Below are positions 844 to 1,057 of a stretch of 61,415 bases of DNA, one piece after another. A model generated the notes under the pieces. That model was given only the letters and a program-made list of their open reading frames with translations, was not told the DNA's origin and did not search any database. A program made the position numbers and the translations under genes. Each line of letters opens with the position of its first letter. The first letter of the stretch is position 1. The stretch spans positions 1-61,415 of the forward strand of contig CALXYM010000013.1 in the NCBI GenBank assembly GCA_944392965.1, given 5' to 3'. This DNA comes from an uncultured Spirochaetaceae bacterium. Lineage in GTDB: Bacteria; Spirochaetota; Spirochaetia; Sphaerochaetales; Sphaerochaetaceae.

Positions 844-1057
844 CAAAAAAAATCGAGAAGACTCCATATCACTATAGAATGGAGATGAATCGTATGGTAT
901 ACTCCAATTAGCTGCTTGCAGGGCAGGAAAATCTCTGCACGTATGTGGGACGCATATGTACTCCGGTGGAGCTAACGTAAGACTTGAGCAGGTTTTCCTG
1001 AGCAAGCAGCTGGTGCTGAAGCCGGAAGCCCGCTCTTCTTAAGTGTGGGTAGTTCAC
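844..1057 (+). mobile_element. 214-bp transposase-less IS200/IS605-like element (omega-RNA MITE)
   Basis: The insert begins right after TTTAT (839-843) and ends with TTCAC (1053-1057), with no target-site duplication, as IS200/IS605 elements do. The left end has a bulged hairpin: CTCCA (862-866) pairs with TGGAG (880-884), with an inner TAT/ATA, loop CACT and bulge GAA. The right end has the hairpin 1029-1037/1041-1049 just before TAGTTCAC, the usual form of IS605-family right ends. No TnpA or TnpB coding sequence remains. TTTAT is of the kind used as target site and TnpB-adjacent motif in this family (family knowledge). Boundaries are ambiguous by one C (844 versus 1058). Confidence 0.8.
910..1057 (+). 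ncRNA. Probable omega-RNA (reRNA) scaffold of the IS605-like element
   Basis: The segment is highly structured. AGCTGCTTGC (910-919) pairs over 10 bp with GCAAGCAGCT (1002-1011), and CAGGAAAA (924-931) pairs over 8 bp with TTTTCCTG (993-1000), making one long interrupted stem. Inside is a small hairpin CTCC/GGAG (961-971). The terminal hairpin 1029-1049 and TAGTTCAC abut the right element end, where TnpB guide RNAs pass into the guide. The guide would then be the ATPase sequence starting at 1058. Transcription is not shown; the start of the RNA is a guess. Confidence 0.6.

Follow-up and report, generated by a model that had tools for sequence, protein, structure and literature searches.

The DNA analysed here (the window) is a stretch of 61,415 nucleotides from an uncultured Spirochaetaceae bacterium, whose genome is available as a 2.43-Mb draft of 38 contigs. 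Near its start, and on the forward strand like all features described below, an ATPase gene of the AAA_14/DUF4143 type is split into a 5' part with the Walker A side (646–843) and a 3' part (1058–2056). Between them lies a non-autonomous element of 214 bases (844–1057), whose limits are set by its copies at unrelated sites and by empty sites in relatives. As found, the ATPase gene is broken: the first frame runs into a stop within the element, and the Walker A part is missing from the second. A sequence-only reading of this DNA had stated that excision of 844–1057 restores the frame, and 646–843 and 1058–2056 indeed join into a single frame of 398 amino acids, in which Pfam places AAA_14 at residues 18–133, across the junction, followed by DUF4143. 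We then have the empty sites that this reading proposed to look for: uninterrupted orthologues with 87–88% amino-acid identity are found in three sister species (G042, G048, and G067), their DNA aligns gap-free through the junction, and none has the segment as normal coding sequence. In G067, which has copies of the element at other places, the empty site reads GTGTTTAT-CCTGAACCC, the two flanks being joined without gap or duplication. The host motif TTTAT, the target and transposon-adjacent motif (TAM), occupies 839–843 and occurs once in this empty site; it precedes nearly all copies of the element whose left flank is known. The right end terminates in TTCAC (1053–1057), which differs from TTTAT, so that the filled site has no TAM. 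TTTAT on the left, TTCAC on the right, and no target duplication, as first read from the window, are thus borne out by the window and by the empty site of G067.

The element belongs to an interspersed family that is mobile or recently so. Searching its own genome gave 11 matches (E 1e-4 to 1e-108), including six full-length copies (five at 94–100% identity and one at 74%), and the remaining matches are mostly fragments that end at contig ends. Copies at 96–98% identity occur in two sister species (G055 and G067) and diverged ones, at 76–79%, in G036 and G038; no copies were found in phage, plasmid, or viral collections. The sequence-only reading had made its case depend on similar ends existing elsewhere, and the family is multicopy at home and present in relatives. 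Relatives that share the tnpB family of this genome belong to the uncultured Spirochaetales of the gut, Candidatus Ornithospirochaeta among them. On one contig of the genome of the window (C2:234776-236910), a mini element (L003, 1501–1714) and a full tnpB element (L019, 374–1832) lie about 0.5 kb apart.

The left end has a hairpin, CTCCAT...ATGGAG (862–884), followed by a conserved ATGAAT, and folds as DNA. The same motif is found in tnpB elements of the family and in a tnpA-bearing element of the same genome (L012), whose hairpin CTCCAT...TGGAGATGAAT has the same pattern. The right-end hairpin (1029–1033 with 1045–1049) shows covariation. Both of these hairpins, noticed at the outset, are real but weak as DNA (z −1.27 on the left, −0.47 on the right), whereas the equivalent hairpins of a tnpB-bearing element are strong (z −3.2 and −3.1). 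The tnpB end of L019 and L020, in the same genome, shares 77% identity with positions 68–129 of the element. Elements of this type have no tnpA beside tnpB; their left end reads CATAGAATCGGCAAGAAGACTCCATCC after TTTAT, and their right end consists of CCGGAAGC, a hairpin, and TAGTTCAC. At its left end, the mini element most resembles another tnpB subfamily, L050/L051 (CAGAAAAAAAGCGAGAAGACTCC...GATGAATCG), and a tree of the right-end tails also places the mini elements with this subfamily (support 80/95). On this evidence, an internal deletion in a TnpB-only, IS1341-like IS200/IS605 transposon gave rise to the mini element, which makes it a palindrome-associated transposable element (PATE). It has the properties of one: it lacks tnpA and tnpB, its near-terminal palindromes resemble those of the IS605-type elements of the genome, it is multicopy and mobile, and it inserts beside a fixed short target without duplication, with precise empty sites. 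That it is a PATE moved by TnpA is almost certain on these grounds, and the copies, relatives, and empty sites support the earlier proposal of a transposase-less IS605-type element mobilised in trans into the ATPase gene.

The deletion spared both ends of the element and the complete omega-RNA, with an extended −10 box joined to its start; the body of the omega-RNA corresponds to the former last ~50 codons of tnpB. The earlier description of an element with only ends and an omega-RNA was therefore right about these parts but too narrow, for it also has tnpB-derived sequence and the extended −10 box. Other rearranged members of the family were seen in relatives. In L221 and L225 (G036), the tnpB 3' end near the omega region is replaced by other repeat-like sequence, at contig ends. 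Three loci of G032 (L211, L226, and L227) and G031:C90 have near-identical omega-like tails with a different right-end hairpin, at several contig ends; they probably represent a further multicopy element of this family that the assembly has broken up.

The extended −10 box, TGGTATACT (consensus TGNTATAAT), lies at 895–903, 6 nt before the omega-RNA. Of the 10 mini lineages compared, most match the consensus perfectly, and the others, among them the copy in the window, have one mismatch. A sigma-70 scan for two hexamers misses this predicted promoter, which is of the extended −10 type and has no −35. Full elements have such a box (TATGATAYAAT and variants) a few bases 5' of the tnpB start codon, and we infer that the deletion brought a promoter of the tnpB type to the place where the omega-RNA begins. 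In L018–L020 and L088–L163, the box is only ~5–9 nt before the start codon, which suggests that their tnpB mRNA is leaderless.

The omega-RNA scaffold, predicted by a covariance model and by covariation, covers 910–1057 and derives from the tnpB 3' end and the right end. To describe its fold, we used two alignments, one of 34 tails of tnpB-bearing elements (A2) and one of 12 tails of protein-less elements (A3). Both have a common nested fold: the hairpins H1 (917–922 with 934–939) and H2 (940–945 with 953–958), a long-range UCCGG/CCGGA helix (962–966 with 1022–1026) around H4 (983–986 with 1003–1006 and 989–992 with 997–1000), and the right-end hairpin. All these helices show covariation, which is strongest in H2, where five of the six pairs change on both sides among the tnpB-linked tails. 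In A2, 96.0% of the cells pair, with 78 double-change cells against 22.8 after shuffling (0/500); the protein-less tails alone give 97.4% and 10 double-change cells against 3.8 (0/500); and sliding the partners by 1–3 columns destroys the pairing in both alignments, these controls somewhat favouring the fold because it was picked after both had been viewed. A pseudoknotted alternative with a 5' helix, P1, was dropped because the nested fold scores better on both alignments. One mini element of G067 (L055, 560–840) has an internal duplication and an insertion, so that its H1/H2 region occurs twice, split by unrelated sequence.

We then compared the upkeep of the helices in five diverged protein-less copies with a neutral null, in which as many transitions and as many transversions as they have are placed randomly on helical positions. 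These copies keep 131 pairs where 112.6 are expected (P about 5e-5), a figure to be read knowing that L041 alone is not significant, that L007 lacks most of H1/H2, and that the five are not fully independent lineages. The helices of protein-less elements thus outlast divergence beyond the neutral expectation, and, as no protein is encoded in these copies, what is constrained is the structure of the nucleic acid. Raw variability of the left end and of the omega part did not differ significantly among near-identical copies (P 0.29); if the 7-nt deletion of one copy is treated as a single event and the terminus of L004 is omitted, P becomes 0.025, which is too weak and too post hoc to build on.

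The sequence-only reading had suggested a covariance search. No Rfam omega-RNA family matched at E up to 1, and since the tnpB-linked tails of the same family are unmatched too, the family is absent from Rfam. Our own model, made from tnpB-linked tails only and built before the fold was refined, found every mini element tested (49.9 to 90 bits, E 1e-12 to 6e-24), and scored 87.9 bits (E 2.2e-23) on 907–1057 of the window. As expected of an omega-RNA, the segment thus derives from the tnpB 3' end and the right end and has the structure conserved in the family. The interrupted 18-bp stem first seen in the window (910–931 with 993–1011) is also real, being the minimum-energy fold of this copy, but it shows no covariation and is not the conserved fold, so we rejected it as a functional structure. 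As a competitor of the nested fold, it counts against the explanation that we favour. The element probably carries an omega-RNA that is transcribed and properly folded. By analogy with TnpB systems, the guide would be the host sequence in the 3' end of this RNA (1058–1077, for an inferred length of ~20 nt).

In the tree of right-end tails, 14 of the 15 protein-less rows form one group from six genomes, each a different species (support 95/92), with branches that reach roughly a quarter of a change per site if the long one of L234 is set aside; the fifteenth, L223, is itself a long branch placed elsewhere. With tails this short and a bootstrap that had yet to settle, a single origin of most protein-less elements is likely but not certain. 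Across the genus, 34 of 48 genomes match the omega model and 34 of 48 match TnpB, so that their co-occurrence is not informative by itself.

The genome of the window has candidate partners for both steps that the element would need from others. It has two Y1 tnpA genes with open frames and three intact tnpB copies of 444 amino acids. The latter belong to a sister of the subfamily nearest to the mini elements, and TnpB of that nearest subfamily (L050/L051) was not found in this genome. The RuvC-II motif of the TnpB of the genome is QDEN, against ED in solved TnpB relatives. With Q at the position of the usual glutamate and E two residues on, the nuclease activity of the TnpBs of this family is uncertain, and the displaced glutamate might take over. 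Rearranged TnpB active sites have been reported. In L050/L051, the motif is QDDN, without the glutamate seen in L019, and the nuclease of these proteins may be altered or lost.

These observations can be joined in the following scenario. In a TnpB-only element, a deletion would have removed the stretch of tnpB that separated the promoter of the element from the omega-RNA in the tnpB 3' end. A Y1 transposase from elsewhere in the genome, e.g., that of L012, would peel off the element and paste it as a single strand. The promoter of the element would drive the omega-RNA through the right end into host DNA, the flank becoming the guide, and a TnpB made elsewhere would bind this RNA and cut the chromosome copy emptied by excision, at TTTAT plus the flank (at the empty ATPase site, the proposed target is TTTATCCTGAACCTGTGATAATC). 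Repair from the filled copy would then restore the element. The filled site should escape: a search of the genome for TTTAT plus the guide, allowing up to three mismatches, matched only the filled site, where TTCAC stands instead of TTTAT, so that cleavage would be directed at the empty site and not at the element itself. We give the whole of this explanation, in which 844–1057 is a PATE acting as a mobile guide-RNA gene, a probability of roughly 0.5. Its central step, also proposed by the sequence-only reading, that the RNA guides TnpB in trans and thereby aids retention, is plausible, if not quite an even bet. More tentative still is the broader picture of an RNA-only selfish lineage, a promoter and an omega-RNA between IS605 ends, which would persist and spread across species of one spirochete genus by using the TnpA of others to move and their TnpB to be copied back into empty sites.

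The strongest competitor, which we nevertheless consider unlikely, is a passive PATE that TnpA moves by means of both ends, the omega part being a functionless leftover spared by the deletion. PATEs with a tnpB 3' tail are known from accounts that, in the parts consulted, claim no such function for it. The family also includes internal-deletion derivatives without a full omega-RNA, as they lack the 5' hairpins H1 and H2, and some copies have a damaged omega part, end, or promoter: the long-range helix of L005 has a 7-nt deletion, the terminal TTCAC is missing from L004, and the −10 is weakened in L002 and L004. Such damaged copies and omega-incomplete derivatives count against a function. However, helices 60–150 nt from the right end, which TnpA would not be expected to need, are kept with compensatory changes in protein-less lineages, and diverged ones still have an extended −10 close to the consensus where the omega-RNA begins. 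A second alternative, which we consider improbable, accepts the promoter-driven omega-RNA and makes it a decoy that titrates TnpB off the guides of full elements, or a regulator of tnpB, with no guiding to empty sites. The helix layout common to the element and the tnpB-linked omega-RNAs would suit it, as would the several tnpB copies alongside the element in one genome, but the 3' end and target motif still suit guiding (the empty site has TTTAT, the filled one TTCAC), and a decoy gives no selective reason for staying mobile. Finally, a normal coding insertion or an assembly artefact in the ATPase gene, which a draft in 38 contigs with several contig ends inside element copies might suggest, is refuted by the multiple copies at unrelated sites in several species, the uninterrupted orthologues, and the in-frame stops.

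If the RNA of the element works as in the mobile guide-RNA scenario, TnpB-guided retention would be a service that other elements can steal, and transposon retention could be tested with separate loci supplying the nuclease and the guide. Such a function would also point to a natural path by which cis-encoded omega-RNAs could become stand-alone guide RNAs, as in the evolution of CRISPR. Paired elements with and without tnpB, with the same ends and a defined empty site, make the gain that a PATE draws from its tnpB 3' end directly testable.

IS605 derivatives that encode no protein but keep a tnpB tail are already known as PATEs (PMC7290912, PMC3119063). We found no description of a promoter-to-omega fusion, of compensatory upkeep of the omega-RNA in protein-less copies, or of a multi-species clade in the parts of the open-access literature searched. 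The PATEs of Haloquadratum walsbyi, e.g., HqIRS71, likewise have no transposase, IS605-type near-terminal palindromes, and no target duplication (PMC3119063); they were described before the function of TnpB was known, and the parts of that account consulted analyse no guide RNA, promoter fusion, or structural conservation. A PATE-like element of 271 nt in Halanaerobium hydrogeniformans follows the same plan, with 28 nt of left end, the last 58 nt of tnpB, and the right end, and was proposed to be mobilised in trans; it is a single copy, described without omega-RNA or promoter analysis in the sections consulted (PMC7290912). The TnpB-only, IS1341-like elements of the genus (L018–L020, L050, and L051) agree with the mini element in left-end hairpin, right end, target (TTTAT or similar), omega model, and type of promoter box, but encode a TnpB of ~440–450 amino acids, whereas the mini element encodes nothing. 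In ISDra2 (PMC8612924) and in the model of TnpB-driven retention (PMC11870625), an RNA from the right end guides TnpB to a site beside the TAM, as proposed here; there, nuclease and guide come from one element, whereas the mini element would supply the guide only.
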